Shown piece by piece: positions 201-57,603 of a DNA stretch of 64,000 nucleotides. Numbering within the stretch: the first letter of the stretch is position 1; every line of letters starts with the position of its first letter. A program made the translations under genes and the position numbers. Under the pieces are notes generated by a model. It was not told the origin of the DNA and made no database searches. It saw nothing but the letters and a program-made list of their open reading frames with translations. The stretch is from Xiphophorus maculatus (Eukaryota > Chordata > Actinopteri > Cyprinodontiformes > Poeciliidae): positions 30,629,717 through 30,693,716 of the forward strand of contig NC_036443.1 in NCBI RefSeq assembly GCF_002775205.1. The letters run 5' to 3'.

Positions 201-868
201 GCTGGACGTGGTTTTCAAAAACCGAAAAGTTAGTTTTGCAAGTTTTAGTATGAACACAAGATTATTTAATCTGAAATTATGAAACATAAATTTTGCTTTG
301 GGTCATGGATAGCTGAACTTTTCAGTGTATTGATATTAATATGATCTGAATCTCTCATATAACAGAACCAGGGTCGTTTGCAGGAATAAGAACTGTTGTG
401 GCATGTGAGGGATCAGAGGCTCAAATATCGTGTGGTAAGGTTACTGGTTTTACTGGTTGTTCTGGAGCATTACACCATGAATACTTTCAGATTTCCAACA
501 TTTCGTCTTCTGTCTTCCAACAGCGAATGAGGATATATTTGTGATCGGTGCTATATATGGACGCAGCGATCGGATGACGTGCTCCTATGGGATACCTGCA
601 GAGCAGACGAAGAACACTAATTGTGCTACGAGGGCAGAATCCGTGTTTCAGAAGTACAGAGCTTCAATCTTTCCTAAAGGGTTTTCTAACTGGATATTAA
701 TTAACAAATCCAAGAAACGACAAATCACAATTTCTAGGAAACTGACCTTGATGTGAATCCACAGATGCGAGGGGAGATCAGCGTGCGCTGTCTTAGCCAG
801 CAGCGCTGTGTTCGGAGATCCCTGTGTTGGGACCTACAAGTACCTGGAGGTGCTATATCTATGTGAAA
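201..868 (+). CDS. Rhamnose-binding lectin R1 (SUEL domain), 5' end outside window
   Basis: Secreted lectin of the SUEL/rhamnose-binding lectin family, which binds L-rhamnose or D-galactose on glycans and serves in fish egg and mucosal defence (family knowledge). Coding exons seen: linker 201-228 (donor gttagt; a 10-nt version ending at 210 also keeps phase), A 366-434, B 524-653, C 765-868. Introns inside the domain are only about 90-110 bp and keep phase. The spliced domain holds all eight family cysteines (VACEG, ISC, MTC, TNC, QKC, SAC, DPC, YLC) and the motifs AIYGRSD and [13 protein letters not shown]. After exon C a gtgagt donor occurs, but without splicing the frame ends at TAA 883-885, adding SEFMV. 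Which end is used is unknown. Its signal exon should match the one at 13,998. Confidence 0.75.
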
Positions 869-3211
869 GTGAGTTTATGGTCTAACTTCACTAAAATATT
901 TCTAAAATTCAAGAACAACATTGAAAAGCATTAATGTCACATTTGTTTTATTCAGCTGATTTAAATTTCCTTTTCTTTATCTTGAAGAAACTCCATTAGT
1001 AGCAGCTTAATTTACCATGTTTTTAACCTGATTAACAAACCCAGCTTTTCAATTAGGAAATTAATTAGGTGAAATAATCTTTTTAGGATTCTCAATTCAT
1101 CCATATTTCCAAGGTTTCATTTTTTATTTTAAATTTTCATTCATATTTTGTTTTTTATATGTATTTATTTTATTTATTAATTTGTTTATTCCTGTTTTTT
1201 GATTCCTCGAATTTCTTTCTTTCTTTTTTAAATAAAAAACGTAAACATCCCATAATAAAATATCAAGACTCGGAGTTTGGTTGCCATGGCGATCCTGTGG
1301 AGCAGGTTTTGTCCAAACTCTGTAGTCTGGTTAAAACTTTTCCCTCATCCGCTTTAATGTTCCAGTCCAGCTCAGTAACACAGTCAGTAGCACTAATGCC
1401 TTGCAGCAACAAGGTCCTGGGTTTGAATCCTAGCCTGGGTCTTTCTGCATTTACTTAGAAAGAATATATTTAATTTTTACACCAAAGACAGAAAACCAGC
1501 CTTGACTCTCCAGAGGCCTTGTTGCAGCTTTAGAACTGGTGATATTTCACTTTCTGATGTCTAAAATGCATTCTGCTGAAACGATATTGTTAATATTTCC
1601 ATGTTTTCAGTTCCATTTGCAACTGAATGAAGCGACGATCAGATCTGCTGTGCTGAGGATGAAATGCATCATAATCAGTAACATCTACAGACGTTGTGAT
1701 CCACTGATGTGCAGCTTCATCTGTCTTCAGTTTCTTTTTATGTTTACTTAGCATTTTATTTGTTTTTCTTCTCCAATCTTCATCTTTTTTTGCTTCTATT
1801 TCAACTTTCCTCAATAAACCTAACTTGCATTTACATTTTGCTCAGTTTGTTTTGCTTTGTTCGCTACAAACAGCCTGATGGGGACGAAAACTTTGACAAA
1901 CTCCTTCCAAACTATGAAGGTAGTTTAAAAACTGTTTCCAGCCTGAATAGGAAGGAACATGTGGAGGAAGTTGGTTGAATGTCTGTGAGAACGCTGCCTG
2001 CTGTCATCTGGATCAGATCAAGATGGCCGCCAACCAGAAGTGACACATTTAGGATGTTTTTTTGTTTACACACAAAAACTAGCATTTTTATTTTTGCCAA
2101 ACGTTGCATATACTTTCACGCCATTAGTTTTACCTTCCATATTTAATGTGGTCATGGTTGGCTGAGGTTTGTGGGGCTTATTTACAAAAATGGAAAAATG
2201 CTTCATCCGACCTCCAAACTTTAAAAAGTTCCTAAAACATCACACTCTCATTCAAATGAGCTCAGATTTTTAGAATGCTTCTTTGGATTGTTCTCAACAT
2301 TTCATACACTCTATGTTTGGCCATATCTCAATATGCCTCACTCTGGGTTTTTTCACAAGTTTGTACTTAACACAGATATCTGTATCTTTCTCAATCTTTT
2401 GACTATCCTAACTAAATTGCTCCCAATAGTGGGACATGTCAGCCTTAGTTATTCTGCAAAGTTTGGCAACAGTCAAATTCACATTTATCTTGGGCAGCAG
2501 CATGTCTGAACATGAACATATTTTAGCCTCATCTAACTTTATCTAAGGGGAATTCCAAGTTTAAATGAACCTTATAAGCTATAATATTTATTTGACCATA
2601 GTAGGATTTGTATTTGGTTTATATTTCTGTTTTGTCACATTTCAATTTCATTCCTTTCTGCATTAAATCCTCTTCACATTCAACAGATCCTTGTAGGAAG
2701 TAATGCAAGACAGTTTAACTGACTGAGATCATCAATAAAGCACTGATGTACATTTCAACAGTACATTGCACCCAGTATACTGTTGCACATTGGCACTGTC
2801 CTGATGGAGAAAACAGGACAGAAAACAAGAACAGCTGATCCAAACGGAGAGTTCTCTACATCATCACAACAGCTGATAACCATGGAACCAACTGGACAAC
2901 AACAGCTGCACACTGCTGCACAGCAGATAACCAACCAGCTGGATATCTGACATGTGAAGAGACCAAACTAGCTCTACACCTGTCGTTTCCCAGAATGCAT
3001 CTGGCCCCTACCAGTAATCTGCTTTTACAGTATGGCTGCACTTTACCCTGAGTGTTGCTAGTGAAACTGAATCAAAAACATGGATACTAAAAATAAATTC
3101 ATACTGTTAAATTTATACAATTTTAAAGCACATTTTTACAGTTACTTGAATCATCTAAGCACAGCACTGACATATTTCCATAATCTGATAAAACCTGACA
3201 CATTCCTGCCT
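869..3211 (+). other. Spacer between R1 and R2
   Basis: No coding exon recognised. It holds T-rich tracts, AATAAA-like sites near 1233, 1814 and 2735, a SINE-like fragment near 1365-1452 and no convincing open frame. The same spacer follows R2, R4 and R5 almost unchanged. The R7 copy lacks two parts of it (see 28,964-30,200). An alternative 3' exon for R1 could lie here but cannot be identified from sequence alone. Confidence 0.6.
1365..1452 (+). mobile_element. tRNA-like SINE fragment
   Basis: Contains GGTTTGAATCC, close to the tRNA/SINE box B consensus GGTTCGANTCC, inside a context (GCAGCAACAAGGTCCTGGG, then CTGGGTCTTTCTGCAT) typical of a dispersed fish repeat. Only a fragment is present; box A is degenerate. 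Copies lie at the same relative place after R2, R4 and R5. Confidence 0.5.
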
Positions 3212-3399
3212 CACCCATCACCAACCTGGAGTTCTGGTCAGAAAACCTCAACAGGACGAATTGTTGCCTGGATAAAGACATTTTGTTCCTCTGTCAGATC
3301 ATCAGTGAAGGTTTATAAACCCTCCATTCCCTGGTTGAAGGCACACTGCTGCTAGTGAATCTGGTTTCTGCTGCTGCTTTGATTCTTCATCACAACAAG
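3212..3399 (+). promoter_or_regulatory. R2 core promoter, TATA box and noncoding exon 1
   Basis: TATAAA lies at 3314-3319. A noncoding first exon probably starts about 30 bp later and ends at 3399 (CAACAAG followed by gtaaaa). The block from CACCCATCACC to this donor is conserved in all seven units with a promoter in the window, even where the sequence further upstream differs (compare 13,632). Confidence 0.65.
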
Positions 3400-3635
3400 G
3401 TAAAATTTGACTGAACAAACCCAAAAAAAGCTGCTTACAATTCTGTTCTTCTAATATATGTTATGATAAATTCTAGTTCTGATTCTCAGAGACATGAAAA
3501 CTTGTTTCCATCATGTTTATATTGATGGATGAAATGTATGATTTGGTTCAGCAGCTTGTTGAAAATGTTGTAGAAAATCCTCTAATATTTTGAGTCATAT
3601 TTCAGAGTAACTGAATGTTTCTTATCTTCATACAG

Positions 3636-4653
3636 ATGAAATTTGTTCTTTTTACTTTGTTCCTTTGTGGATTCATCCTGGAAATCAATGTGAGTGAAAA
3701 TCTTCTCTTCTGTTTGCTGTTTAGAAAATCAGTTGTTAAAAATCTACATTTTGTGTTTTTATGTCTTTATTTTGACTGTATGTGAAACAGGCAGTGAAAC
3801 ACAGAAATGTGTCTGTATGAACAGCAGATAAACGATGATAACTTTATCTTCAATCAACTCTAAAAACTATGAAGACAAAAAAGTTTTTAAAAGTAATTAT
3901 TTTTTATATCTGTCTCTCTTGGTTAACAGGGAAAAAGTTCATCAGGAGGTTTGTGCTTTAATCTTTCTGGTGTTTTGAGTTCACAAGGTGGCGCTGCAGG
4001 TTTTAGTATGAAGACAAGCTGGGCATGAAGGCTGATGTTGAATGTTCATCATTTATTGGATCTAAAACTGTTAAACATGAATTTATCTTTAGTTCGTGGG
4101 TGTTTGGACTTTTCTGTGTCCTGATATGAATATGATCTGAATGTCTCATATGCAGCATGGCTCCCAGAGAAAAAATCCCTTGTTGCCTGTGAAGGAACAG
4201 TGGCTCGACTCCACTGTGGTAAGGTCACTGGTTTCACTGGTCGGTTCTGGAGCATTACACCATGAATACATTCAGGTTTCCAACATTTCCTCTTCGCTCT
4301 GGCAGAAGAAGGTCAGGCTATCTATGTGACCAGTGCTACATACGGACGCAGCAATCGGTTCACGTGCTACGTTGGGATACCTGCAGAGCAGACGAAGAAC
4401 ACTGATTGTGCTACAAGGGCAGAATCCGTGTTTCAGAGGTACAGAGCTTCAATCTTTCCTAAAGGGTTTTCTAACTGGATATTAATTAATAAATCCAAGA
4501 AACGGCAAATCACAATTTCTAGGAAACTGACCTTGATGTGAATCCACAGATGCGAGGGGAGATCAGCGTGCAATGTTTTTGCCAGTAGCTCTGTGTTCGG
4601 AGATCCCTGTGTTGGGACCTACAAGTACCTGGAGGTGATATATCTATGTGAAA
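3636..4653 (+). CDS. Rhamnose-binding lectin R2, hybrid unit
   Basis: Complete single-domain secreted lectin. Exons: signal 3636-3689 ([18 protein letters not shown]), linker 3930-3948 (GKSSSG), A 4156-4218, B 4306-4438, C 4550-4653. Every junction keeps frame: the linker is 19 nt and restores phase between the phase-0 signal exon and the phase-1 exon A. The domain has eight cysteines (VACEG, LHC, FTC, TDC, QRC, SAC, DPC, YLC), ATYGRS and [13 protein letters not shown]. If exon C is not spliced onward, the product is about 129 residues with stop TAA 4668-4670. The first part (exons 1 to early B) matches R3, while the rest matches R1, so this gene looks like the product of unequal crossing-over. 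Function as for R1. Confidence 0.8.
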
Positions 4654-6995
4654 GTGAGTTTATGGTCTAACTTCACTAAAATATTTCTAAAATTCAAGAA
4701 CAACATTGAAAAGCATTAATGTCACATTTGTTTTATTCAGCTGATTTAAATTTCCTTTTCTTTATCTTGAAGAAACTCCATTAGTAGCAGCTTAATTTAC
4801 CATGTTTTTAACCTGATTAACAAACCCAGCTTTTCAATTAGGAAATTAATTAGGTGAAATAATCTTTTTAGGATTCTCAATTCATCCATATTTCCAAGGT
4901 TTCATTTTTTATTTTTCATTTTCATTCATATTTTGTTTTTATATGTATTTATTTTATTTATTAATTTGTTTATTCCTGTTTTTTGATTCCTCGAATTTCT
5001 TTCTTTCTTTTTTAAATAAAAAACGTAAGCATCCCATAATAAAATATCAAGACTCGGAGTTTGGTTGCCATGGCGATCCTGTGGAGCAGGTTTTGTCCAA
5101 ACTCTGTAGTCTGGTTAAAAATTTTCCCTCATCCGCTTTAATGTTCCAGTCCAGCTCAGTAACACAGTCAGTAGCACTAATGCCTTGCAGCAACAAGGTC
5201 CTGGGTTTGAATCCTAGCCTGGGTCTTTCTGCATTTACTTAGAAAGAATATATTTAATGTTTACACCAAAGACAGAAAACCAGCCTTGACTCTCCAGAGG
5301 CCTTGTTGCAGCTTTAGAACTGGTGATATTTCACTTTCTGATGTCTAAAATGCATTCTGCTGAAACGATATTGTTAATATTTCCATGTTTTCAGTTCCAT
5401 TTGCAACTGAATGAAGCGACGATCAGATCTGCTGTGCTGAGGATGAAATGCATCATAATCAGTAACATCTACAGACGTTGTGATCCACTGATGTGCAGCT
5501 TCATCTGTCTTCAGTTTCTTTTTATGTTTACTTAGCATTTTATTTGTTTTTCTTCTCCAATCTTCATCTCTTTTTGCTTCTATTTCAACTTTCCTCAATA
5601 AACCTAACTTGCATTTACATTTTGCTCAGTTTGTTTTGCTTTGTTCGCTACAAACAGCCTGATGGGGACGAAAACTTTGACAAACTCCTTCCAAATTATG
5701 AAGGTAGTTTAAAAACTGTTTCCAGCCTGAATAGGAAGGAACATGTGGAGGAAGTTGGTTGAATGTCTGTGAGAACGCTGCCTGCTGTCATCTGGATCAG
5801 ATCAAGATGGCCGCCAACCAGAAGTGACACATTTAGGATGTTTTTTTGTTTACACACAAAAACTAGCATTTTTATTTTTGCCAAACATTGCATATACTTT
5901 CACGCCATTAGTTTTACCTTCCATATTTAATGTGGTCATGGTTGGCTGAGGTTTGTGGGGCTTATTTACAAAAATGGAAAAATGCTTCATCCGACCTCCA
6001 AACTTTAAAAAGTTCCTAAAACATCACACTCTCATTCAAATGAGCTCAGATTTTTAGAATGCTTCTTTGGATTGTTCTCAACATTTCATACACTCTATGT
6101 TTGGCCATATCTCCATATGCCTCACTCTGGGTTTTTTCACAAGTTTGTACTTAACACAAATATCTGTATCTTTCTCAATCCTTTGACTATCCTAACTAAA
6201 TTGCTCCCAATAGTGGGACATGTCAGCCTTAGTTATTCTGCAAAGTTTGGCAACAGTCAAATTCACATTTATCTTGGGCAGCACCATGTCTGAACATGAA
6301 CATATTTTAGCCTCATCTAACTTTATCTAAGGGGAATTCCAAGTTTAAATGAATCTTATAAGCTATAATATTTATTTGACCATAGTAGGATTTGTATTTG
6401 GTTTATATTTCTGTTTTGTCTCATTTCAATTTCACTCCTTTCTGCATTAAATCCTCTTCACATTCAACAGATCCTTGTAGGAAGTAATGCAAGACAGTTT
6501 AACTGACTGAGATCATCAATAAAGCACTGATGTACATTTCAACAGTACATTGCACCCAGTATACTGTTGCACATTGGCACTGTCCTGATGGAGAAAACAG
6601 GACAGAAAACAAGAACAGCTGATCCAAACGGAGAGTTCTCTACATCATCACAACAGCTGATAACCATGGAACCAACTGGACAACAACAGCTGCACACTGC
6701 TGCACAGCAGATAACCAACCAGCTGGATATCTGACATGTGAAGAGACCAAACTAGCTCTACACCTGTCGTTTCCCAGAATGCATCTGGCCCCTACCAGTA
6801 ATCTGCTTTTACAGTTTGGCTGCACTTTACCCTGAGTGTTGCTAGTGAAACTGAATCAAAAACATGGATACTAAAAATAAATTCATACTGTTAAATTTAT
6901 ACAATTTTAAAGCACATTTTTACAGTTACTTGAATCATCTAAGCACAGCACTGACATATTTCCATAATCTGATAAAACCTGACACATTCCTGCCT
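4654..6995 (+). other. Spacer between R2 and R3
   Basis: Near-identical to the R1-R2 spacer, including the SINE-like fragment near 5150-5236. No coding exon recognised. Confidence 0.6.
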
Positions 6996-7183
6996 CACCC
7001 ATCACCAACCTGGAGTTCTGGTCAGAAAACCTCAACAGGACGAATTGTTGCCTGGATAAAGACATTTTGTTCCTCTGTCAGATCATCAGTGAAGGTTTAT
7101 AAACCCTCCATTCCCTGGTTGAAGGCACACTGCTGCTAGTGAATCTGGTTTCTGCTGCTGCTTTGATTCTTCATCACAAGATG
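6996..7183 (+). promoter_or_regulatory. R3 core promoter, TATA box and noncoding exon 1
   Basis: TATAAA at 7098-7103. The first exon ends CACAAGATG before gtaaaa at 7184, unlike CACAACAAG in R2. Splicing this ATG onto the signal exon would place it directly before, and in frame with, the normal start codon (Met-Met-Lys). Confidence 0.6.
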
Positions 7184-7418
7184 GTAAAATTTGACTGAAC
7201 AAACCCAAAAAAGCTGCTTACAATTCTGTTCTTCTAATATATGTTATGATAAATTCTAGTTCTGATTCTCGGAGACATGAAAACTTGTTTCCATCATGTT
7301 TATATTGATGGATGAAATGTATGATTTGGTTCAGCAGCTTGTTGAAAATGTTGTAGAAAATCCTCTAATATTTTGAGTCATATTTCAGAGTAACTGAATG
7401 TTTCTTATCTTCATACAG

Positions 7419-9461
7419 ATGAAATTTGTTCTTTTTACTTTGTTCCTTTGTGGATTCATCCTGGAAATCAATGTGAGTGAAAATCTTCTCTTCTGTTTGC
7501 TGTTTAGAAAATCATTTGCTAAAAATCTACATTTTGTGTTTTTATTTCTTTATTTTGACTGTATGTGAAACAGGCAGTGAAACACAGAAATGTGTCTGTA
7601 TGAACAGCAGATAAACGATGATAACTTTATCTTCAATCAACTCTAAAAACTATGAAGACAAAAAAGTTTTTAAAAGTAATTATTTTTTATATCTGTCTCT
7701 CTTGGTTAACAGGGAAAAAGTTCATCAGGAGGTTTGTGCTTTAATCTTTCTGGTGTTTTGAGTTCACAAGGTGGCGCTGCAGGTTTTAGTATGAAGACAA
7801 GCTGGGCATGAAGGCTGATGTTGAATGTTCATCATTTATTGGATCTAAAACTGTTAAACATGAATTTATCTTTAGTTCGTGGGTGTTTGGACTTTTCTGT
7901 GTCCTGATATGAATATGATCTGAATGTCTCATGCAGCATGGCTCCCAGAGAAAAAATCCCTTGTTGCCTGTGAAGGAACAGTGGCTCGACTCCACTGTGG
8001 TAAGGTCACTGGTTTCACCGGTCGGTTCTGGAGCATTACACCATGAATACATTCAGGTTTCCAACATTTCCTCTTCGCTCTGGCAGAAGAAGGTCAGGCT
8101 ATTGTTAAGGAAATATGGCTATTTTTGATTGTTTAATATTGTTAAGCTAATGCCATGTGCGTTTAAGTAGATCAACATTCCTATTTGGACAAGCTGATGC
8201 AAGGTAGGAGTTCAGAGATAAACATTCTCCTGGCAAGGCTGTAACTTAGAGCAGCCATAAAACACTATACTCTTGAAAGGCTTTAAATTAGTAGGCCATA
8301 AAGAATATCTTCCCCGGCTCACAGGTCAGAGGTCGGGGGTTTCCCAGGAGCTCAGAGTTGCATCTGGAGTTGATCACAACTTAGGAATCTTGGAAACACT
8401 TAGGTTTAATTTCTGATACACCTTTTAAATATTGATAGCAATAGTGTGTTAGATTAAAGTATATTACCCAAGTTACAAGTACTAATCTAGTAAATGGAAT
8501 GTATTTGAAAATGTACTAACTATGACAATATCGGAATCAAAAGGGAATGGTTTGAATGTTATGTTTTACAGGTTGAAAAAAGACTTCTATCTCATTATTG
8601 TTTGTGATAAGGTAAAGATTCAAATCTTTGGAGAAGCTGACTGCAGAGGAGCAAGATAGGTTTTGTGAAAATAACTTATAACTTTAATAACTAAAATGAC
8701 TCTTGATATTTGTCATTAAAACTCAGGGGAAGGTCTAAGTTTTTTCCAAGGTAGCTCAGAGGTACGCCCTATTTGCATATATTAACAAAGAGAAACGCCT
8801 TCACTAGAAAAGGGAATGCTCAATAATAAGAATTCAGACAACTGCCCTGTTTTGCTTTTAAGCATCAGCTGTCTCCAAAGGCGCCTTTGTTCTTTTTCTT
8901 TTAATTCTTTTGTCTCAGGTAAAGAATGTACTTTTGTGTACTCTGAAGTTTCTTGTTAAATTCATACGGTGTTTTCTATTGAATTAAACTCTGTATCTCT
9001 GTGACGTCATTGTGCCTCGCCGTCTTCTTGCCAGCCGTGACGACATCCGCTCAGGACCCGGGCTAACAGGAGGAAAAGAGAGCCATGCTTTTTCCAAAAT
9101 TTAAGCTAACCTAATAAATTTCCTCCTTAATACTATCTATGTGACCAGTGCTACATACGGACGCACTGATAAGAAGACTTGCAGTGCTCGTAGACCGGCC
9201 GACCAGCTAAAGAACACTGAATGCTTCACATACGCAGAGGAAGTTGGTGAGAGGTACAGAGCTTCAGTATTTCCTGAAGGTTTATCAAACTGGATGTGAA
9301 TGAGTGAATGAGGAGGACTAAGAAAGGCAAATCGCTGACTTTGATCTGAATCCACAGATGCAACGGGAAACAGTGGTGTAAAGTCAAAGCCAGTAACTAT
9401 GTGTTCGGAGATCCCTGCTATGGAACCTACAAGTACCTGGAGGTGGAATATATTTGTTACG
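7419..9461 (+). pseudogene. Rhamnose-binding lectin R3, interrupted in exon B
   Basis: Exons: signal 7419-7472, linker 7713-7731, A 7937-7999, B in two parts 8087-8102 and 9137-9253, C 9358-9461. Exon B is split by a 1,030-bp insertion with a CTAT target duplication, so the normal domain is not encoded in one exon. The parts upstream of the insertion match R2. The parts downstream are a distinct, more diverged domain type: [48 protein letters not shown]. All eight cysteines remain if the insertion is ignored. A donor-like gtgagt follows exon C; unspliced, the frame ends at TAA 9485-9487. It is probably a pseudogene unless the insertion supplies a splice site. Confidence 0.65.
8103..9132 (+). 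mobile_element. Solo-LTR-like insertion in R3 exon B
   Basis: 1,030 bp begins TGTTAAGGA and ends TCCTTAATA (near inverted ends) and is flanked by CTAT at 8099-8102 and 9133-9136. The empty site in R2 has one copy fewer, so a 4-bp target duplication is clear. The body has promoter-like and poly(A)-like stretches (AATTAAACTCTG) and no long frame, as expected of a solitary LTR of an old retroelement. The family is not recognised. A non-autonomous DNA element is the alternative. It predates the 14-kb duplication, because block 2 has it at the same base. Confidence 0.5.
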
Positions 9462-11689: not shown

Positions 11690-12156
11690 CACCGCACCCA
11701 TACATGCGCACACACACACACACACACATGCCCACACATGCACACACACACATATGTTTGTCTCTCTATCTTTGCAGGGACTTTCCATTGACTTCGATTA
11801 ATTTCTACAACCCAACCCTAACCAAAACTCAATACACATCCTAGTCCTAAACCTAACTCTTAACCCAAAAACACAATTTCCCCTTGTGGGGGCCAAGTCC
11901 TGGTCCCCACAAGGGGCAGTGTCTCCACAATGTAATATGTGTCAGGAAAATGGTCCCACAATGCATCAAATACCTGTTGCTCACACACTTGGTTGTGTGT
12001 GTGTGTGTTTGTGTGTTTCATTGACAGACCAAGCATTCAGTCACCATCACATACCTTACTGTAACCCAAAATCAGCATTTTACCTCATGGGGACCAAGAG
12101 ATGTCCCCACAATGTAGAGGGACTAAAGGTTCCCATGAACACATAAAAACCTGGTT

Positions 12157-12220
<64 letters not shown>

Positions 12221-13997: not shown

Positions 13998-14924
13998 ATG
14001 AAATTCGTCCTTTTTACTTTGTTCCTTTGTGGATTCGTCCTGGAAATCAATGTGAGTGAAAACCTTCTCTTCTCTTTGTGGTTTGAATATCTGTTGTTAA
14101 AAACATTATTTTACTGGTTTTATTTAGCAATTATAGTTTTCTTGTCATTCAAATTTTAACCAGATTTTAATTTGATGCTTACATCTCTAAGGAGCTTGAA
14201 GTAAAAATCCTGCCGTTTCTATTTGTGATTCATTTTGTTGTTTTTTTTTTTAACAGGCTGGACGTGGTTTTCAAAAACCGAAAAGTTAGTTTTGCAAGTT
14301 TTAGTATGAACACAAGATTATTAAATCTAAAATTATAAAACATAAATTTTGCTTTAGGTCATGGATAGCTGAACTTTTCAGTGTATTGATATTAATATGA
14401 TCTGAATCTCTCATATAACAGAACCAAGGTCGTTTGCAGGAATAAGAACTGTTGTGGCATGTGAGGGATCAGAGGCTCAAATATCGTGTGGTAAGGTTAC
14501 TGGTTTTACTGGTTGTTCTGGAGCATTACACCATGAATACTTTCAGATTTCCAACATTTCGTCTTCTGTCTTCCAACAGCGAATGAGGATATATTTGTGA
14601 TCGGTGCTATATATGGACGCAGCGATCGGATGACGTGCTCCTATGGGATACCTGCAGAGCAGACGAAGAACACTAATTGTGCTACGAAGGCAGAATCCGT
14701 GTTTCAGAAGTACAGAGCTTCAATCTTTCCTAAAGGGTTTTCTAACTGGATATTAATTAACAAATCCAAGAAACGACAAATCACAATTTCTAGGAAACTG
14801 ACCTTGATGTGAATCCACAGATGCGAGGGGAAATCAGCGTGCGCTGTCTTAGCCAGCAGCGCTGTGTTCGGAGATCCCTGTGTTGGGACCTACAAGTACC
14901 TGGAGGTGCTATATCTATGTGAAA
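13998..14924 (+). CDS. Rhamnose-binding lectin R4
   Basis: Block-2 partner of R1, with all exons inside the window. Signal 13,998-14,051 ([18 protein letters not shown]), linker 14,257-14,284 (AGRGFQKPK; a 10-nt form ending 14,266 is also in phase), A 14,422-14,490, B 14,580-14,709, C 14,821-14,924. Eight cysteines, AIYGRSD and [13 protein letters not shown] are intact. Unspliced after exon C it stops at TAA 14,939-14,941, giving about 133 residues. The three exon differences seen from R1 all change the amino acid: Gly to Arg in exon A, Arg to Lys in exon B, Arg to Lys in exon C. Secreted sugar-binding protein by family. Confidence 0.8.
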
Positions 14925-17266
14925 GTGAGTTTATGGTCTAACTTTAAATATTTCTAAAATTCAAGAACAACATTGAAAAGCATTAATGTCACATTTGTTT
15001 TATTCAGCTGATTTAAATTTCCTTTTCTTTATCTTGAAGAAACTCCATTAGTAGCAGCTTAATTTACCATGTTTTTAACCTGATTAACAAACCCAGCTTT
15101 TCAATTAGGAAATTAATTAGGTGAAATAATCTTTTTAGGATTCTCAATTCATCCATATTTCCAAGGTTTCATTTTTTATTTTTCATTTTCATTCATATTT
15201 TGTTTTTATATGTATTTATTTTATTTATTAATTTGTTTATTCCTGTTTTTTGATTCCTCGAATTTCTTTCTTTCTTTCTTTTTTAAATAAAAAACGTAAG
15301 CATCCCATAATAAAATATCAAGACTCGGAGTTTGGTTGCCATGGCGATCCTGTGGAGCAGGTTTTGTCCAAACTCTGTAGTCTGGTTAAAACTTTTCCCT
15401 CATCCGCTTTAATGTTCCAGTCCAGCTCAGTAACACAGTCAGTAGCACTAATGCCTTGCAGCAACAAGGTCCTGGGTTTGAATCCTAGCCTGGGTCTTTC
15501 TGCATTTACTTAGAAAGAATATATTTAATTTTTACACCAAAGACAGAAAACCAGCCTTGACTCTCCAGAGGCCTTGTTGCAGCTTTAGAACTGGTGATAT
15601 TTCACTTTCTGATGTCTAAAATGCATTCTGCTGAAACGATATTGTTAATATTTCCATGTTTTCAGTTCCATTTGCAACTGAATGAAGCGACGATCAGATC
15701 TGCTGTGCTGAGGATGAAATGCATCATAATCAGTAACATCTACAGACGTTGTGATCCACTGATGTGCAGCTTCATCTGTCTTCAGTTTCTTTTTATGTTT
15801 ACTTAGCATTTTATTTGTTTTTCTTCTCCAATCTTCATCTTTTTTTGCTTCTATTTCAACTTTCCTCAATAAACCTGACTTGCATTTACATTTTGCTCAG
15901 TTTGTTTTGCTTTGTTCGCTACAAACAGCCTGATGGGGACGAAAACTTTGACAAACTCCTTCCAAACTATGAAGGTAGTTTAAAAACTGTTTCCAGCCTG
16001 AACAGGAAGGAACATGTGGAGGAAGTTGGTTGAATGTCTGTGAGAACGCTGCCTGCTGTCATCTGGATCAGATCAAGATGGCCGCCAACCAGAAGTGACA
16101 CATTTAGGATGTTTTTTTGTTTACACACAAAAACTAGCATTTTTATTTTTGCCAAACGTTGCATATACTTTCACGCCATTAGTCTTACCTTCCATATTTA
16201 ATGTGGTCATGGTTGGCTGAGGTTTGTGGGGCTTATTTACAAAAATGGAAAAATGCTTCATCCGACCTCCAAACTTTAAAAAGTTCCTAAAGCATCACAC
16301 TCTCATTCAAATGAGCTCAGATTTTTAGAATGCTTCTTTGGATTGTTCTCAACATTTCATACACTCTATGTTTGGCCATATCTCCATATGCATCACTCTG
16401 GGTTTTTTCACAAGTTTGTACTTAACACAAATATCTGTATCTTTCTCAATCCTTTGACTATCCTAACTAAATTGCTCCCAATAGTGGGACATGTCAGCCT
16501 TAGTTATTCTGCAAAGTTTGGCAACAGTCAAATTCACATTTATCTTGGGCAGCAGCATGTCTGAACATGAACATATTTTAGCCTCATCTAACTTTATCTA
16601 AGGGGAATTCCAAGTTTAAATGAACCTTATAAGCTATAATATTTATTTGACCATAGTAGGATTTGTATTTGGTTTATATTTCTGTTTTGTCTCATTTCAA
16701 TTTCATTCCTTTCTGCATTAAATCCTCTTCACATTCAACAGATCCTTGTAGGAAGTAATGCAAGACAGTTTAACTGACTGAGATCATCAATAAAGCACTG
16801 ATGTACATTTCAACAGTACATTGCACCCAGTATACTGTTGCACATTGGCACTGTCCTGATGGAGAAAACAGGACAGAAAACAAGAACAGCTGATCCAAAC
16901 GGAGAGTTCTCTACATCATCACAACAGCTGATAACCATGGAACCAACTGGACAACAACAGCTGCACACTGCTGCACAGCAGATAACCAACCAGCTGGATA
17001 CCTGACATGTGAAGAGACCAAACTAGCTCTACACCTGTCGTTTCCCAGAATGCATCTGGCCCCTACCAGTAATCTGCTTTTACAGTATGGCTGCACTTTA
17101 CCCTGAGTGTTGCTAGTGAAACTGAATCAAAAACATGGATACTAAAAATAAATTCATACTGTTAAATTTATACAATTTTAAAGCACATTTTTACAGTTAC
17201 TTGAATCATCTAAGCACAGCACTGACATATTTCCATAATCTGATAAAACCTGACACATTCCTGCCT
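14925..17266 (+). other. Spacer between R4 and R5
   Basis: Near-identical to 869-3211, with the SINE-like fragment near 15,420-15,507. No coding exon recognised. Confidence 0.6.
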
Positions 17267-17690: not shown

Positions 17691-18708
17691 ATGAAATTTG
17701 TTCTTTTTACTTTGTTCCTTTGTGGATTCATCCTGGAAATCAATGTGAGTGAAAATCTTCTCTTCTGTTTGCTGTTTAGAAAATCAGTTGTTAAAAATCT
17801 ACATTTTGTGTTTTTATGTCTTTATTTTGACTGTATGTGAAACAGGCAGTGAAACACAGAAATGTGTCTGTATGAACAGCAGATAAACGATGAAAACTTT
17901 ATCTTCAATCAACTCTAAAAACTTTGAAGACAAAAAAGTTTTTAAAAGTAATTATTTTTTATATCTGTCTCTCTTGGTTAACAGGGAAAAAGTTCATCAG
18001 GAGGTTTGTGCTTTAATCTTTCTGGTGTTTTGAGTTCACAAGGTGGCGCTGCAGGTTTTAGTATGAAGACAAGCTGGGCATGAAGGCTGATGTTGAATGT
18101 TCATCATTTATTGGATCTAAAACTGTTAAACATGAATTTATCTTTAGTTCGTGGGTGTTTGGACTTTTCTGTGTCCTGATATGAATATGATCTGAATGTC
18201 TCATATGCAGCATGGCTCCCAGAGAAAAAATCCCTTGTTGCCTGTGAAGGAACAGTGGCTCGACTCCACTGTGGTAAGGTCACTGGTTTCACTGGTCGGT
18301 TCTGGAGCATTACACCATGAATACATTCAGGTTTCCAACATTTCCTCTTCGCTCTGGCAGAAGAAGGTCAGGCTATCTATGTGACCAGTGCTACATACGG
18401 ACGCAGCAATCGGTTCACGTGCTACGTTGGGATACCTGCAGAGCAGACGAAGAACACTGATTGTGCTACGAGGGCAGAATCCGTGTTTCAGAGGTACAGA
18501 GCTTCAATCTTTCCTAAAGGGTTTTCTAACTGGATATTAATTAATAAATCCAAGAAACGGCAAATCACAATTTCTAGGAAACTGACCTTGATGTGAATCC
18601 ACAGATGCGAGGGGAGATCAGCGTGCAATGTTTTTGCCAGTAGCTCTGTGTTCGGAGATCCCTGTGTTGGGACCTACAAGTACCTGGAGGTGATATATCT
18701 ATGTGAAA
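17691..18708 (+). CDS. Rhamnose-binding lectin R5, hybrid unit
   Basis: Block-2 partner of R2. Signal 17,691-17,744, linker 17,985-18,003, A 18,211-18,273, B 18,361-18,493, C 18,605-18,708. I saw no amino-acid change from R2 in these exons; one exon-B codon differs silently (ACA to ACG). Eight cysteines, ATYGRS and [13 protein letters not shown] are intact. The signal exon, linker and exon A are of the R3/R6 type, while late exon B and exon C are of the R1/R4 type, as in R2. The end of the coding frame has the same ambiguity as R2. Confidence 0.8.
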
Positions 18709-21050
18709 GTGAGTTTATGGTCTAACTTCACTAAAATATTTCTAAAATTCAAGAACAACATTGAAAAGCATTAATGTCACATTTGTTTTATTCAGCTGAT
18801 TTAAATTTCCTTTTCTTTATCTTGAAGAAACTCCATTAGTAGCAGCTTAATTTACCATGTTTTTAACCTGATTAACAAACCCAGCTTTTCAATTAGGAAA
18901 TTAATTAGGTGAAATAATCTTTTTAGGATTCTCAATTCATCCATATTTCCAAGGTTTCATTTTTTATTTTTCATTTTCATTCATATTTTGTTTTTATATG
19001 TATTTATTTTATTTATTAATTTGTTTATTCCTGTTTTTTGATTCCTCGAATTTCTTTCTTTCTTTTTTAAATAAAAAACGTAAGCATCCCATAATAAAAT
19101 ATCAAGACTCGGAGTTTGGTTGCCATGGCGATCCTGTGGAGCAGGTTTTGTCCAAACTCTGTAGTCTGGTTAAAAATTTTCCCTCATCCGCTTTAATGTT
19201 CCAGTCCAGCTCAGTAACACAGTCAGTAGCACTAATGCCTTGCAGCAACAAGGTCCTGGGTTTGAATCCTAGCCTGGGTCATTCTGCATTTACTTAGAAA
19301 GAATATATTTAATGTTTACACCAAAGACAGAAAACCAGCCTTGACTCTCCAGAGGCCTTGTTGCAGCTTTAGAACTGGTGATATTTCACTTTCTGATGTC
19401 TAAAATGCATTCTGCTGAAACGATATTGTTAATATTTCCATGTTTTCAGTTCCATTTGCAACTGAATGAAGCGACGATCAGATCTGCTGTGCTGAGGATG
19501 AAATGCATCATAATCAGTAACATCTACAGACGTTGTGATCCACTGATGTGCAGCTTCATCTGTCTTCAGTTTCTTTTTATGTTTACTTAGCATTTTATTT
19601 GTTTTTCTTCTCCAATCTTCATCTCTTTTTGCTTCTATTTCAACTTTCCTCAATAAACCTAACTTGCATTTACATTTTGCTCAGTTTGTTTTGCTTTGTT
19701 CGCTACAAACAGCCTGATGGGGACGAAAACTTTGACAAACTCCTTCCAAATTATGAAGGTAGTTTAAAAACTGTTTCCAGCCTGAACAGGAAGGAACATG
19801 TGGAGGAAGTTGGTTGAATGTCTGTGAGAACGCTGCCTGCTGTCATCTGGATCAGATCAAGATGGCCGCCAACCAGAAGTGACACATTTAGGATGTTTTT
19901 TTGTTTACACACAAAAACTAGCATTTTTATTTTTGCCAAACGTTGCATATACTTTCACGCCATTAGTTTTACCTTCCATATTTAATGTGGTCATGGTTGG
20001 CTGAGGTTTGTGGGGCTTATTTACAAAAATGGAAAAATGCTTCATCCGACCTCCAAACTTTAAAAAGTTCCTAAAACATCACACTCTCATTCAAATGAGC
20101 TCAGATTTTTAGAATGCTTCTTTGGATTGTTCTCAACATTTCATACACTCTATGTTTGGCCATATCTCCATATGCCTCACTCTGGGTTTTTTCACAAGTT
20201 TGTACTTAACACAAATATCTGTATCTTTCTCAATCCTTTGACTATCCTAACTAAATTGCTCCCAATAGTGGGACATGTCAGCCTTAGTTATTCTGCAAAG
20301 TTTGGCAACAGTCAAATTCACATTTATCTTGGGCAGCAGCATGTCTGAACATGAACATATTTTAGCCTCATCTAACTTTATCTAAGGGGAATTCCAAGTT
20401 TAAATGAACCTTATAAGCTATAATATTTATTTGACCATAGTAGGATTTGTATTTGGTTTATATTTCTGTTTTGTCTCATTTCAATTTCACTCCTTTCTGC
20501 ATTAAATCCTCTTCACATTCAACAGATCCTTGTAGGAAGTAATGCAAGACAGTTTAACTGACTGAGATCATCAATAAAGCACTGATGTACATTTCAACAG
20601 TACATTGCACCCAGTATACTGTTGCACATTGGCACTGTCCTGATGGAGAAAACAGGACAGAAAACAAGAACAGCTGATCCAAACGGAGAGTTCTCTACAT
20701 CATCACAACAGCTGATAACCATGGAACCAACTGGACAACAACAGCTGCACACTGCTGCACAGCATATAACCAACCAGCTGGATATCTGACATGTGAAGAG
20801 ACCAAACTAGCTCTACACCTGTCGTTTCCCAGAATGCATCTGGCCCCTACCAGTAATCTGCTTTTACAGTATGGCTGCACTTTACCCTGAGTGTTGCTAG
20901 TGAAACTGAATCAAAAACATGGATACTAAAAATAAATTCATACTGTTAAATTTATACAATTTTAAAGCACATTTTTACAGTTACTTGAATCATCTAAGCA
21001 CAGCACTGAAATATTTCCATAATCTGATAAAACCTGACACATTCCTGCCT
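18709..21050 (+). other. Spacer between R5 and R6
   Basis: Near-identical to 4654-6995, with the SINE-like fragment near 19,205-19,292. No coding exon recognised. Confidence 0.6.
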
Positions 21051-21474: not shown

Positions 21475-23519
21475 ATGAAATTTGTTCTTTTTACTTTGTT
21501 CCTTTGTGGATTCATCCTGGAAATCAATGTGAGTGAAAATCTTCTCTTCTGTTTGCTGTTTAGAAAATCATTTGCTAAAAATCTACATTTTGTGTTTTTA
21601 TTTCTTTATTTTGATTGTATGTGAAACAGGCAGTGAAACACAGAAATGTGTCTGTATGAACAGCAGATAAACGATGATAACTTTATCTTCAATCAACTCT
21701 AAAAACTATGAAGACAAAAAAGTTTTTAAAAGTAATTATTTTTTATATCTGTCTCTCTTGGTTAACAGGGAAAAAGTTCATCAGGAGGTTTGTGCTTTAA
21801 TCTTTCTGGTGTTTTGAGTTCACAAGGTGGCGCTGCAGGTTTTAGTATGAAGACAAGCTGGGCATGAAGGCTGATGTTGAATGTTCATCATTTATTGGAT
21901 CTAAAACTGTTAAACATGAATTTATCTTTAGTTCGTGGGTGTTTGGACTTTTCTGTGTCCTGATATGAATATGATCTGAATGTCTCATATGCAGCATGGC
22001 TCCCAGAGAAAAAATCCCTTGTTGCCTGTGAAGGAACAGTGGCTCGACTCCACTGTGGTAAGGTCACTGGTTTCACCGGTCGGTTCTGGAGCATTACACC
22101 ATGAATACATTCAGGTTTCCAACATTTCCTCTTCGCTCTGGCAGAAGAAGGTCAGGCTATTGTTAAGGAAATATGGCTATTTTTGATTGTTTAATATTGT
22201 TAAGCTAATGCCATGTGCGTTTAAGTAGATCAACATTCCTATTTGGACAAGCTGATGCAAGGTAGGAGTTCAGAGATAAACATTCTCCTGGCAAGGCTGT
22301 AACTTAGAGCAGCCATAAAACACTATACTCTTGAAAGGCTTTAAATTAGTAGGCCATAAAGAATATCTTCCCCGGCTCACAGGTCAGAGGTCGGGGGTTT
22401 CCCAGGAGCTCAGAGTTGCATCTGGAGTTGATCACAACTTAGGAATCTTGGAAACACTTAGGTTTAATTTCTGATACACCTTTTAAATATTGATAGCAAT
22501 AGTGTGTTAGATTAAAGTATATTACCCAAGTTACAAGTACTAATCTAGTAAATGGAATGTATTTGAAAATGTACTAACTATGACAATATCGGAATCAAAA
22601 GGGAATGGTTTGAATGTTATGTTTTACAGGTTGAAAAAAGACTTCTATCTCATTATTGTTTGTGATAAGGTAAAGATTCAAATCTTTGGAGAAGCTGACT
22701 GCAGAGGAGCAAGATAGGTTTTGTGAAAATAACTTATAACTTTAATAACTAAAATGACTCTTGATATTTGTCATTAAAACTCAGGGGAAGGTCTAAGTTT
22801 TTTCCAAGGTAGCTCAGAGGTACGCCCTATTTGCATATATTAACAAAGAGAAACGCCTTCACTAGAAAAGGGAATGCTCAATAATAAGAATTCAGACAAC
22901 TGCCCTGTTTTGCTTTTAAGCATCAGCTGTCTCCAAAGGCGCCTTTGTTCTTTTTCTTTTAATTCTTTTGTCTCAGGTAAAGAATGTACTTTTGTGTACT
23001 CTGAAGTTTCTTGTTAAATTCATACGGTGTTTTCTATTGAATTAAACTCTGTATCTCTGTGACGTCATTGTGCCTCGCCGTCTTCTTGCCAGCCGTGACG
23101 ACATCCGCTCAGGACCCGGGCTAACAGGAGGAAAAGAGAGCCATGCTTTTTCCAAAATTTAAGCTAACCTAATAAATTTCCTCCTTAATACTATCTATGT
23201 GACCAGTGCTACATACGGACGCACTGATAAGAAGACTTGCAGTGCTCGTAGACCGGCCGACCAGCTAAAGAACACTGAATGCTTCACATACGCAGAGGAA
23301 GTTGGTGAGAGGTACAGAGCTTCAGTATTTCCTGAAGGTTTATCAAACTGGATGTGAATGAGTGAATGAGGAGGACTAAGAAAGGCAAATCGCTGACTTT
23401 GATCTGAATCCACAGATGCAACGGGAAACAGTGGTGTAAAGTCAAAGCCAGTAACTATGTGTTCGGAGATCCCTGCTATGGAACCTACAAGTACCTGGAG
23501 GTGGAATATATTTGTTACG
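21475..23519 (+). pseudogene. Rhamnose-binding lectin R6, interrupted in exon B
   Basis: Block-2 partner of R3. Signal 21,475-21,528, linker 21,769-21,787, A 21,995-22,057, B split into 22,145-22,160 and 23,195-23,311, C 23,416-23,519. The insertion and its CTAT duplication are at the same base as in R3, so the interruption was inherited through the 14-kb duplication. The diverged downstream domain ([20 protein letters not shown]) still has all its cysteines. Confidence 0.65.
22161..23190 (+). mobile_element. Solo-LTR-like insertion in R6 exon B
   Basis: Same 1,030-bp element as at 8103, flanked by CTAT at 22,157-22,160 and 23,191-23,194. It is a passenger of the block duplication, not a second insertion. 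Confidence 0.5.
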
Positions 23520-25734: not shown

Positions 25735-26235
25735 ACATGCACACGCCCACACGCCCACCGCACCCACACCTGCGCACGCACACACACACACACACACGCC
25801 CACACATGCACACACACACATATGTTTGTCTCTCTATCTTTGCAGGGACTTTCCATTGATTTCGATTAATTTCTACAACCCAACCCTAACCAAAACTCAA
25901 TACATATCCTAGTCCTAAACCTAACTCTTAACCCAAAAACACAATTTCCCCTTGTGGGGGCCAAGTCCTGGTCCCCACAAGGGGCAGTGTCTCCACAATG
26001 TAATATGTGTCAGGAAAATGGTCCCTCAATGCATCAAATACCTGCTGCTCACACACATGGTTGCGTGTGTGTGTGTGTGTGTGTGTGAACCAGGTTTTTA
26101 TGTGTTCATGGGAACCTTTCGTCCCTCTACATTGTGGGGACATCTCTTGGTCCCCATGATGTAAAATGCTGATTTTGTGTAACAGTAAGGTATGTGATGG
26201 TGACTGAATGCTTGGTCTGTCAATGAAACACACAA

Positions 26236-26276
<41 letters not shown>

Positions 26277-28036: not shown

Positions 28037-28963
28037 ATGAAATTCGTCCTTTTTACTTTGTTCCTTTGTGGATTCGTCCTGGAAATCAATGTGAGTGAAA
28101 ACCTTTTCTTCTCTTTGTGGTTTGAATATCTGTTGTTAAAAACATTATTTTACTGGTTTTATTTAGCAATTATAGTTTTCTTGTCATTCAGTTGTTAACC
28201 AGATTTTAATTTGATGCTTACATCTCTAAGGAGCTTGAAGTAAAAATCCTGCCGTTTCTATTTGTGATTCATTTTGTTGTTGTTTTTTTTTAACAGGCTG
28301 GACGTGGTTTTCAAAAACCGAAAAGTTAGTTTTGCAAGTTTTAGTATGAACACAAGATTATTTAATCTAAAATTATGAAACATAAATTTTGCTTTAGGTC
28401 ATGGATAGCTGAACGTTTCAGTGTATTGATATTAATATGATCTGAATCTCTCATATAACAGAACCAAAGTTGTCCACACAATTACAAACTGCTGTGGCAT
28501 GTGAGGGATCAGAGGCTCACTTATCGTGTGGTAAGGTCACTGGTTTTACTGGTTTTTGTGGAGAATTACATCATGAGTACATTCAGATTTCCAACATTTC
28601 GTTTTCTGTCTTCCAACAGCGAATGAGGATATATTTGTGGTCAGTGCTATATATGGACGCAGCGATCGGATGATGTGCTCCTATGGGATACCTGACGAGC
28701 AGACGAAGAACACTAATTGTGCTATGATGGCAAATTCAGTGTTACAGAGGTACAGAGCTTCAATCTTTCCTAAAGGGTTTTCTAACTGGATATTAATTAA
28801 CAAATCCAAGAAACGGCAAATCACAATTTCTAGGAAACTGACTTTGATGTGAATCCACAGATGCGATGGGGAAACGATGTGCACTGTTTTTGCCAGTAGC
28901 TCTGTGTTCGGAGATCCCTGTGTTGGGACCTACAAGTACCTGGAGGTGATATATCTATGTTAA
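28037..28963 (+). CDS. Rhamnose-binding lectin R7
   Basis: Single-domain secreted lectin. Signal 28,037-28,090, linker 28,297-28,324 (10-nt option ending 28,306), A 28,462-28,530, B 28,620-28,749, C 28,861-28,963. With the 28-nt linker the product is 127 residues. It ends with TAA exactly after the eighth cysteine (EVIYLC), at the codon that is GAA in R1, R2, R4 and R5, so this unit has an unambiguous stop like classical RBLs. Eight cysteines, AIYGRSD and [13 protein letters not shown] are present. It differs from R1/R4 at many exon residues, for example LSTQLQTA in exon [19 protein letters not shown] in exon B and CDGETMC in exon C, and so is an older paralog. Confidence 0.82.
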
Positions 28964-30200
28964 AGTGAGTTTATGGTCTAACTTTAAATTTTTCTAAAAT
29001 TCAAGAACAACATTGAAAAGCATTAATGTCACAGTTGTTTTATTCAGCTGATTTAAATTTCCTTCCTTTAGCTTAAGGAAACTTTACCATGTTTTTAACC
29101 TGATTAACAAATCCAGCTTTTCAATTAGGAAATTAATTAACAGAAATATTTTTTATAATGATTCTAAATTCATCCATATTTGCAAGATTCCTTTTTTTTG
29201 CAGCGACGATCAGATCTGCTGTGCTGAGCATGAAATGCATCATAATCAGTAACATCTACAGACGTTGTGATCCACTGATGTGCAGCTTCATCTGTCTTCA
29301 GTTTCTTTTTATGTTTACTTAGCATTTTATTTGTTTTTCTTCTCCAATCTTCATCTCTTTTTGCTTCTATTTCAACTTTCCTCAATAAACCTGACTTGCA
29401 TTTACATTTTGCTCAGTTTGTTTTGCTTTGTTCGCTACAAACAGCCTGATGGGGACGAAAACTTTGACAAACTCCTTCCAAACTATGAAGGTAGTTTAAA
29501 AACTGTTTCCAGCCTGAACAGGAAGGAACATGTGGAGGAAGTTGGTTGAATGTCTGTGAGAACGCTGCCTGCTGTCATCTGGATCAGATCAAGATGGCCG
29601 CCAACCAGAAGTGACACATTTAGGATGTTTTTTTGTTTACACACAAAAACTAGCATTTTTATTTTTGCCAAACGTTGCATATACTTTCACGCCATTAGTT
29701 TTACCTTCCATATTTAATGTGGTCATTGTTGGCTGAGGTTTGTGGGGCTGATTTACAAAAATGGAAAAATGCTTCATCCAACCTCCAAACTTTAAACAGA
29801 ACGTCTCCTGGAGAAAACAGGATGCGTTCAAGAACAGCTGATCCAAACGGAGAGTTCTCTACATCATCACAACAGCTGATAACCATGGAACCAACTGGAC
29901 AACAACAGCTGCACACTGCTGCACAGCAGATAACCAACCAGCTGGATATCTGACATGTGAAGAGACCAAACTAGCTCTACACCTGTCGTTTCCCAGAATG
30001 CATCTGGCCCCTACCAGTAATCTGCTTTCACAGTATGGCTGCACTTTACCCTGAGTGTTGCTAGTGAAACTGAATCAAAAACATGGATACTAAAAATAAA
30101 TTTATACAATTTTAAAGCACATTTTTACAGTTACTTGAATCATCTAAGCACAGCACTGACATATTTCCATAATCTGATAAAACCTGACACATTCCTGCCT
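28964..30200 (+). other. Shortened spacer between R7 and R8
   Basis: Counterpart of the R1-R2 spacer with two segments missing (junctions near 29,190-29,205 and 29,795-29,815). No coding exon. Confidence 0.6.
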
Positions 30201-30388
30201 CACCCATCACCAACCTGGAGTTCTGGTCAGAAAACCTCAACAGGACGAATTGTTGCCTGGATAAAGACATTTTGTTCCTCTGTCAGATCATCAGTGAAGG
30301 TTTATAAACCCTCCATTCCCTGGTTGAAGGCACACTGCTGCTAGTGAATCTGGTTTCTGCTGCTGCTTTGATTCTTCATCACAACAAG
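30201..30388 (+). promoter_or_regulatory. R8 orphan promoter and noncoding exon 1
   Basis: TATAAA at 30,303-30,308 and first exon ending 30,388 (CAACAAG, then gtaaaa) are intact. The array breaks at about 30,619, a few bases before where the signal exon should start, so no lectin follows. It could still drive a noncoding or read-through transcript. Confidence 0.6.
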
Positions 30389-31084
30389 GTAAAATTTGAC
30401 TGAACAAACCCAAAAAAAGCTGCTTACAATTCTGTTCTTCTAATATATGTTATGATAAATTCTAGTTCTGATTCTCAGAGACATGAAAACTTGTTTCCAT
30501 CATGTTTATATTGATGGATGAAATGTATGATTTGGTTCAGCAGCTTGTTGAAAATGTTGTAGAAAATCATCTAATATTTTGAGTCATATTTCAGAATAAC
30601 TGAATGTTTCTTATCTTCACTTTTAGTGTTTTTATTTTTTTAACAATACACAAAAAAAACAATAATTATCCTTGACATTAATCTTTTGTAAATTTTTTAT
30701 ATTTATAATTTATAATTTTATTTTTTTTTTCAATGGGTGATCTTTATAGTTGAATTTGAGACACTTATTATGTTCTGGGTCAAATTGACCCGCTGATTAA
30801 GATCAATACAAGCGAGTCATGCAGAGCAGGGGGATCTGATGACTGCAATTGAGAAACACAGTTTTATATACAAATTATACTACAGTGGACATATAAAAAC
30901 CTTTTTCTTTTTTTACCCGACATTGGCATGTACAAGGTTTATACAGCCACCGTATTTATAGTCATGTCGGACAGTAGGGAGGTGCGAAGTGTATTCTTCT
31001 TCCTGGGGGGTTTAACAGAAAATAATTGAAGCTCTGCTATGGAGTGAGTTTGCTGCACTGAAAGTAAAGGGGCAGAATAATATT

Positions 31085-45242: not shown

Positions 45243-45655
45243 AAGTTTAACATAAACTGAGCTGAACTAGAAATGATTTGATCAACGAACCAAAAGGGGA
45301 ACATTATCTGAATATGGCAAGACCTAAATGACAATAATAAACACAGAAAGGATCACAGAGGAAACACAAAATTAAACCAAAACCACTGAAACCAAAGGCA
45401 GATATGCATGAATTCAATAAGGTTACATGAATTTTACAAAAAAAGGAATCAAACTGAAAACTCAGATAAAAGCTATTTACACAGATCAGGTTTGAATAAT
45501 GTTTCAAACATGTTGAAGAACTGTGACTAGAAGAAAATCTATTGTCTCACATCAACACATCATTTTGCTGTTTAGTTAATATGGGTTTTACATATTTTTT
45601 ATTTTAAAAGATATAAGAAAAACTGAGAAAGTCTTCTCCTCAGCATGTCATCGTC

Positions 45656-57281: not shown

Positions 57282-57603
57282 CTGGAAACGCAACAGGAAA
57301 CGCAATTCGCATTTTGACAATCTGTCTTTTCCTGATAAATTGGCAAGTAAAAAATATTCAAACCAGTTTTGTTTACATACTGAAGATCTCAGGTTGCACG
57401 AGCATCCGAACCTTTATGTAGAAGAACGAACATTTAAAATCCTAACACTGATAATAAAAGAAAAACAGGTCCTATTACAAACTATCTAGTAGTATGAATA
57501 GTAGTTAACGCATATTATTTCTGTATTTATTCACTTGTACTTATTACACGCTGTTATTATTTCACAAAATACAACAAGGTACAAGACAAAAACTCATCTA
57601 AGA

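Follow-up and report, generated by a model that had tools for sequence, protein, structure and literature searches.

The 64,000-nucleotide stretch of DNA analysed here (the window; C1:30629717-30693716) opens inside an array of single-domain SUEL lectin genes. A profile search of its own assembly (704 Mb, 101 contigs) gave 44 exon-level matches to PF02140, 18 of which form one array at C1:30577855-30658676, with six on the minus strand and 12 on the plus strand. This array (C1:30577162-30658700) has two arms of opposite orientation, a centre at about 30.601-30.605 Mb and an X-hybrid-Y triplet in each arm. Its last seven plus-strand genes, R1-R7, fall in the window, R1 without its first exon. 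X-type genes (R1, R4 and R7 in the window; m1, m3X, m6X, p2X and p4X outside) alternate with Y-type genes (R3 and R6 in the window; m2Y, m4Y, p1Y, p3Y and p5Y outside). Three genes are hybrids: R2 and R5 in the window, and m5H on the opposite strand upstream of it. The features of the window that concern us are the following.

201-1630, plus strand: R1, X-type gene; exons 201-228, 366-434, 524-653, 765-868 and 1611-1630, exon 1 lying upstream of the window
566-4350, plus strand: tandem unit copy 1, from the R1 break site to the R2 break site, 3785 bp
3636-3689, plus strand: R2 exon 1, signal peptide, Y-derived, 0/54 differences from R3 exon 1
3930-3948, plus strand: R2 linker exon, 19 nt, Y-type (the X-type counterpart is a different 28-nt exon)
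4156-4218, plus strand: R2 exon A, Y-derived, carrying the ACEG glutamate (CSL3 Glu7)
4306-4438, plus strand: R2 exon B, Y-derived as far as the YGR codons and X-derived beyond
4331-4350, plus strand: putative crossover interval; 4344-4350 with an R1-like X parent, 4331-4350 with an m6X-like X parent
4351-9165, plus strand: tandem unit copy 2, from the R2 break site to the homologous site of R3, 4815 bp including a 1030-bp insert and a 4-bp target duplication
4550-4653, plus strand: R2 exon C, X-derived, with the DPC motif; 4577-4638 R7-like
5395-5414, plus strand: R2 last coding exon, 20 nt including the stop, X-type; beyond the range of the preliminary description
7419-9461, plus strand: R3, Y-type gene with a solo LTR breaking exon B; range without the last exon
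8103-9132, plus strand: solo LTR in R3 exon B, 1030 bp, multicopy element, CTAT on both sides
13998-15685, plus strand: R4, X-type gene, block copy of R1
17691-19469, plus strand: R5, hybrid, block copy of R2; break motif 18399-18405
21475-23519, plus strand: R6, Y-type gene, block copy of R3, with the same LTR at 22161-23190
28037-28964, plus strand: R7, X-type gene with TAA straight after the last cysteine codon

The R2 gene model has six coding exons and an open frame of 130 amino acids, and all five introns are GT...AG. In R7 (28956-28964), m3X, m6X and p2X a TAA immediately follows the codon of the last cysteine; the tail exon that R1, R2, R4 and R5 use would therefore go untranslated in R7, m3X, m6X and p2X, and in R7 the stretch holding most of it is deleted. 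Of the Y genes, m2Y, m4Y, p3Y and p5Y keep an open frame to the end of exon C. The frame is broken in p1Y, whose exon A carries one base too many, and in p4X, whose exon A is 70 nt long; these two are pseudogenes or sequence errors. A gene-less Y-type upstream region at window 29809-30619 represents a truncated next copy that ends just short of the place of the ATG. A second SUEL cluster lies at C1:30.28-30.30 Mb (loci L016 and L017). Near the array, C-type lectin domains (PF00059) occur in three minus-strand open frames (window 40558-41052, 46771-47148 and 57022-57357), and reverse transcriptase fragments (PF00078) at 44571-45260 and 52012-52365 are probably ordinary LINE-like repeats.

Exon B of both R3 and R6 is broken after 16 nt by an insert with the ends TGTTAAGG and CCTTAATA, which was absent from the preliminary description. 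The two copies do not differ at any of 1030 positions. Scoring of 40 out of 475 candidates elsewhere in the genome gave 38 more copies of roughly full length, so at least that many exist, including at least four same-strand pairs 11.2-11.3 kb apart. Being multicopy, paired elsewhere, flanked by a target-site duplication and single here, the insert is a solo LTR of an endogenous retrovirus-like element. A frame read straight into it meets a stop after 11 codons containing insert bases; of eight AGs tested close to the end of the insert, one (exon start 9106) would give an open frame to exon C and is a candidate splice acceptor.

Comparison of R2 with its neighbours revealed a sharp change of nearest relative within exon B. 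On the 5' side R2 differs from R3 at 0 of 179 exon bases (27 of 29 bases were covered in the last stretch of this count) and at 7 of 532 intron bases, which bears out the match of their 5' exons reported in the preliminary description. Identity between R1 and R2 on this side is 63.0% and 77.0% (windows R1 100-331 and 332-538). On the 3' side it is R1 that resembles R2, with 21 differences in 2856 noncoding bases and 16 in 212 exon bases, whereas identity of R2 to R3 falls to 68.9%; R2 is thus far from being equally close to R1 and R3 throughout. Late exon B and exon C had been matched to R1. They are X-type, as claimed, but their closest X gene is a different one: m6X for late exon B (5/88 differences from R2; R1 9/88) and R7 for the 4583-4653 part of exon C (1/71; R1 3/71). 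At 4550-4582, R7 is the gene most distant from R2 (8/33). Over 263 columns at the beginning of intron C, m3X, p4X and R1 are all identical to R2.

Read base by base, R2 tracks R3 to 4343 and R1 from 4351, with a few later exceptions. At 394 sites scored with R1/R4 and R3/R6 as references, R2 has 164 Y bases and 5 X bases before the switch; after it, 213 bases are X, 9 are Y and 3 belong to neither type. The last Y site is 4343 and the first X site 4351. We then used the 228 sites fixed among all 15 non-hybrid genes, a set from which the sites in one 29-nt piece were dropped (p4X being one base out of register there). R2 is Y at 105/105 of these on the left and X at 122/123 on the right, and its 227 X-or-Y sites are perfectly ordered, which was matched in none of 10,000 site shuffles. 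A third set, leaving out p4X and m1, comprised 272 sites separating six X from seven Y genes. The left-hand sites were Y in 123 of 123 cases and the right-hand sites X in 147 of 149, one of the two exceptions being 4369, which is of neither type; R2, R5 and m5H all agree at these counts.

The last Y site in the 272-site set is 4330, because the Y-like YGR codons are also present in m6X. This X-type gene lies directly upstream of m5H and carries the codons ACATACGGACGC in its exon B (C1:30600302 region); they are either a short conversion tract or a donor trace. When m6X was left out (289 sites; 139/139 Y on the left, 148/150 X on the right), the last Y site was again 4343. The crossover that had been proposed at the YGR codons near 4340-4352 therefore falls at 4344-4350 with an R1-like X parent. 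Its place inside exon B stands in either case, but can be narrowed only to 4331-4350 if the X parent was m6X-like.

Maximum-likelihood trees of the 5' and 3' segments, each built from 18 genes (support given as SH-aLRT/bootstrap), gave the same picture. R2, R5 and m5H fall within the Y clade in the 5' tree (100/100). In the 3' tree they stand among the X genes, grouped with m3X/m6X/p2X at 98.4/58, and the seven Y genes form a separate 100/100 clade. Only the hybrids change sides between the two trees. None of the 18 array genes in this one assembly is a reciprocal product with an X-type 5' and a Y-type 3' half.

Unequal crossing-over predicts that the extra copy equals exactly one X-to-Y interval, and the observed spacings fit. 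The distance between YGR sites in the hybrid-free X-Y pairs is 3776 bp (p2X-p3Y), 3779 bp (p4X-p5Y) and 3779 bp (m3X-m2Y). Within the triplets the steps are 3781 bp (m6X-m5H), 3782 bp (m5H-m4Y), 3785 bp (R1-R2) and 3784 bp (R4-R5), and those with the LTR in the Y gene measure 4815 bp (R2-R3) and 4818 bp (R5-R6). The order X, Y/X hybrid, Y and the 3.78-kb period of the preliminary description are thereby confirmed. From R1 939 to 4140, every one of 16 windows shows 98.5-100% identity between the two unit copies; identity is 92.0% and 96.5% in the two exon-bearing windows immediately to the right of the break, and 63-77% to its left. On a larger scale, a 9.25-kb X-Y period, one 3.78-kb unit and the 1.03-kb insert make up a 14.06-kb block that is present twice in the window. 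R2 and R5 differ at 12 of 3763 bases compared, and R4 and R5 are 99.0-100% identical in windows 14995-15598. About 186 bp are inverted between the block copies (window 11994-12179 versus 26065-26250; 97.8% identical on opposite strands), beside CA/GT repeats.

Taken at the level of the sequence, R2 is very probably a chimeric single-domain rhamnose-binding lectin gene born by unequal crossing-over between an X-type and a downstream Y-type gene, at the YGR codons of exon B. An X gene would have misaligned with the Y gene about 3.78 kb downstream (non-allelic recombination), and an exchange between the misaligned chromatids or homologues at the homologous YGR codons would turn an X-Y pair into X-hybrid-Y in one step. 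The sequence of R2 shows the two sources: its upstream region, signal peptide, linker, exon A and early exon B are of Y type, and late exon B, exon C and the last exon are of X type. Events would then have followed in this order: the crossover, copying of the triplet to both arms, entry of the LTR into a plus-arm Y gene, and duplication of the 14-kb block. We place the LTR after the crossover because the Y half of the hybrids spans the LTR site and is empty there, the Y gene behind m5H has no LTR, and the inserts of R3 and R6 are identical. Later gene conversion would have changed part of exon C. The direction from X-Y to X-hybrid-Y is one that we infer, and the pairs could be deletion products of triplets.

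R5 had also been put forward as a hybrid. It does show the same switch, but as a block copy of R2 it is not an independent hybrid, and m5H likewise looks copied. C4361 and A4369 are common to the three hybrids and present in none of the other 15 genes, which points to a single origin, so that R2, R5 and m5H would seem to descend from the same crossover. A common origin receives weak support from the 2 kb of upstream sequence. There m5H is the nearest gene to R2 and R5 (0.45% difference), but m5H itself stands nearer to p3Y and p5Y (0.35%), and bootstrap values on the branches of the hybrids are 43-59. Of the ten Y and hybrid genes whose upstream regions were compared, nine differ from one another by 0.00-1.01%; the tenth, p1Y, was set apart, its upstream 2 kb being 32% different from each of the rest. 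These low values are a sign of a homogenised array, so no absolute date can be given for the crossover.

Exon C bears marks of later exchange. T4577, T4580 and T4586 are common to R2, R5 and R7 and absent from the other X genes and from m5H. They fall in an R7-like tract of exon C found in R2 (4577-4638) and R5 (18632-18693), unlike m5H, and this tract is likely to reflect gene conversion. Conversion between genes after the crossover would be the simplest reading of the mixed relatedness to the X genes.

The present-day R1 is not the exact parent of the 3' half, because the exons it shares with R2 differ more than the noncoding DNA does (p 5.5e-10). Diversifying selection was considered as the explanation of these exon differences and rejected, many of the bases being common to other X genes (m6X and R7). 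Since they are shared in this way, donor variety and conversion explain part of the excess. Among six X genes, pN exceeded pS in 14 of 15 pairs (the exception being m6X-p2X), with none of the 15 significant (smallest Fisher p 0.15), and an exon excess over introns reached p < 0.05 in seven pairs and not in the other eight. These pairs exclude p4X, whose counts were inflated by misalignment. A pooled R4/R5 comparison of exons with noncoding DNA (ratio 1.0) was likewise set aside, because its intron C count (211 of 741) came from equal-length stretches with indels in them. Selection on X-gene exons is suggested by these sequence comparisons. The R1-R2 exon excess is real and mixes conversion, donor variety and perhaps selection.

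As conversion seems to be active in the array, judging from the R7-shared bases of R2 and R5 and the Y-like YGR codons of m6X, we asked whether it could have made the hybrid without any crossover, by overwriting the 3' half of a pre-existing third gene of pure Y type (or the 5' half of one of pure X type). Such an account needs a separate earlier duplication. It predicts neither that the extra copy equals one X-to-Y interval with its ends at the same codon, nor that the unit copies are nearly identical across 3 kb of intron and intergenic DNA, and we hold it to be very improbable. Even less credible is that the mosaic was assembled from collapsed near-identical repeats. The array is a long, highly similar repeat, and the broken frames of p1Y and p4X could be sequence errors, but the three hybrids sit on two opposite arms, each with its own differences (12/3763 between R2 and R5), and one of them precedes a Y gene without an LTR.

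The polarity could also be turned around: the hybrid would be the older form, and either its neighbours gained the X-type 5' and Y-type 3' parts or the X-Y pairs arose from X-hybrid-Y by deletion. Recombination between a hybrid and its neighbour, with deletion, does restore an X-Y pair, so hybrid-free pairs alone are no proof of polarity. However, the 3' tree puts the hybrids within the X genes and not beside them (the inner grouping at 98.4/58), the X-type 5' and Y-type 3' halves each occur in several genes on both arms, and at least two events are needed against one. We consider this order highly unlikely. All three rivals (conversion without crossover, an older hybrid, misassembly) were rejected as the main account, leaving unequal crossing-over as our preferred explanation.

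The predicted protein agrees with the claim of a new single-domain lectin with recombined halves. Besides its open frame, R2 matches SUEL_Lectin (PF02140) over profile positions 1-80 of 80 with 72.7 bits (R4 64.0 bits; cut-off 31.4). It has nine cysteines, one in the signal peptide and eight in the domain, which align with the eight of CSL3, four disulfides per domain being usual in this family, and it keeps ATYGR and a DPCxGTxKYL-type motif (YGR and DPCxGTxKYL as defined in PMC3269628). Its matches among solved structures are the three-domain rhamnose-binding lectin 5h4s, CSL3, CSL2 and latrophilin lectin domains. CSL3 contacts sugar through Glu7, Tyr27, Asn74, Asp79, Gly83 and Lys86, and Arg39 and Gln43 are key to its oligosaccharide specificity (PMC3269628); two long loops lie near the sugar site (PMC2430599).

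Aligned to CSL3, the hybrid takes the equivalents of Glu7 and Tyr27 from the Y side and those of Asp79, Gly83 and Lys86 from the X side. All five are invariant in the nine array proteins aligned, and five of the six primary sugar-site residues are conserved in R2. At position 74, R2, R4, m3X and R7 have Ser, and the four aligned Y genes and m6X have Asn. Position 39 is Ile in the hybrid and R4 and Arg in the four Y genes, as in CSL3; Gln43 is shared. The exchange point thus comes after the initial portion of the primary site and before the specificity positions 39 and 74. The hybrid should fold as a SUEL domain, keep the primary monosaccharide site and bind simple sugars, with an X-like oligosaccharide preference because positions 39 and 74 come from the X side.

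The hybrid is presumably expressed. In windows covering R2 3250-3399, near the presumed promoter, X and Y upstream regions are 96-98% alike (R3 and R6 columns right of about 4300 were left out of this comparison). Given this likeness, a Y-specific expression pattern is not implied by the sequence.

The geometry is that of classical fusion genes. In haemoglobin Lepore and anti-Lepore and in the red/green opsin hybrids, misaligned paralogues exchange within a gene, and the duplication product keeps both parents with the hybrid between them (anti-Lepore geometry). The lectin array differs from these in its gene family, in having three hybrid copies and in having one parent copy interrupted by an LTR.

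Among immune genes, the chicken BG genes offer a parallel: tandem same-strand genes of two lineages, in which hybrids with the 5' end of one lineage and the 3' end of the other are ascribed to unequal crossing-over or deletion, and in which cell and tissue expression is reported to depend on the 5' end (PMC4046983). The phylogenetic signal in the middle of the BG genes is described as scrambled (PMC4046983), whereas the lectin break can be placed to 7-20 bp and unrecombined parents stand in the same array.

Like CSL3 (PDB 2zx0), CSL2 (9vwi) and snakehead SHL, the array genes encode SUEL domains with YGR and DPC motifs and eight cysteines, and as in the SHL gene one domain is spread over three exons (PMC3269628). 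Unlike the two-domain CSL and SHL, they are single-domain. The accessible part of PMC3269628 describes no chimera broken inside the domain for SHL or CSL, and no hybrid rhamnose-binding lectin of this kind was found among the best-matching titles of the open-access literature. The crossover mechanism is textbook.

A broader role is conceivable but rather unlikely, the more so as the X and Y sequences near the presumed promoter hardly differ. Recombination at the YGR codons might be a reusable diversifier that puts the specificity loops (positions 39 and 74) of one type behind an upstream region, signal peptide and initial strands of the other. The hybrid might have been kept and multiplied for an X-type glycan preference in a new context, with the Y parents of the same blocks interrupted by the LTR. 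Given the exon-biased divergence and conversion tracts, the array would then act as a germline generator of lectin diversity.

The array shows clearly, in a natural setting, how a gene can arise by crossing-over within an exon. Because the hybrid, genes of both parental types and three unrecombined parental pairs have all been preserved in one place, the break can be placed to 7-20 bp, inside the motif that helps to form the sugar-binding site. This makes two ideas testable: that the swapped second part of a SUEL domain would shift glycan specificity, and that recombination may diversify a defence-type lectin array.
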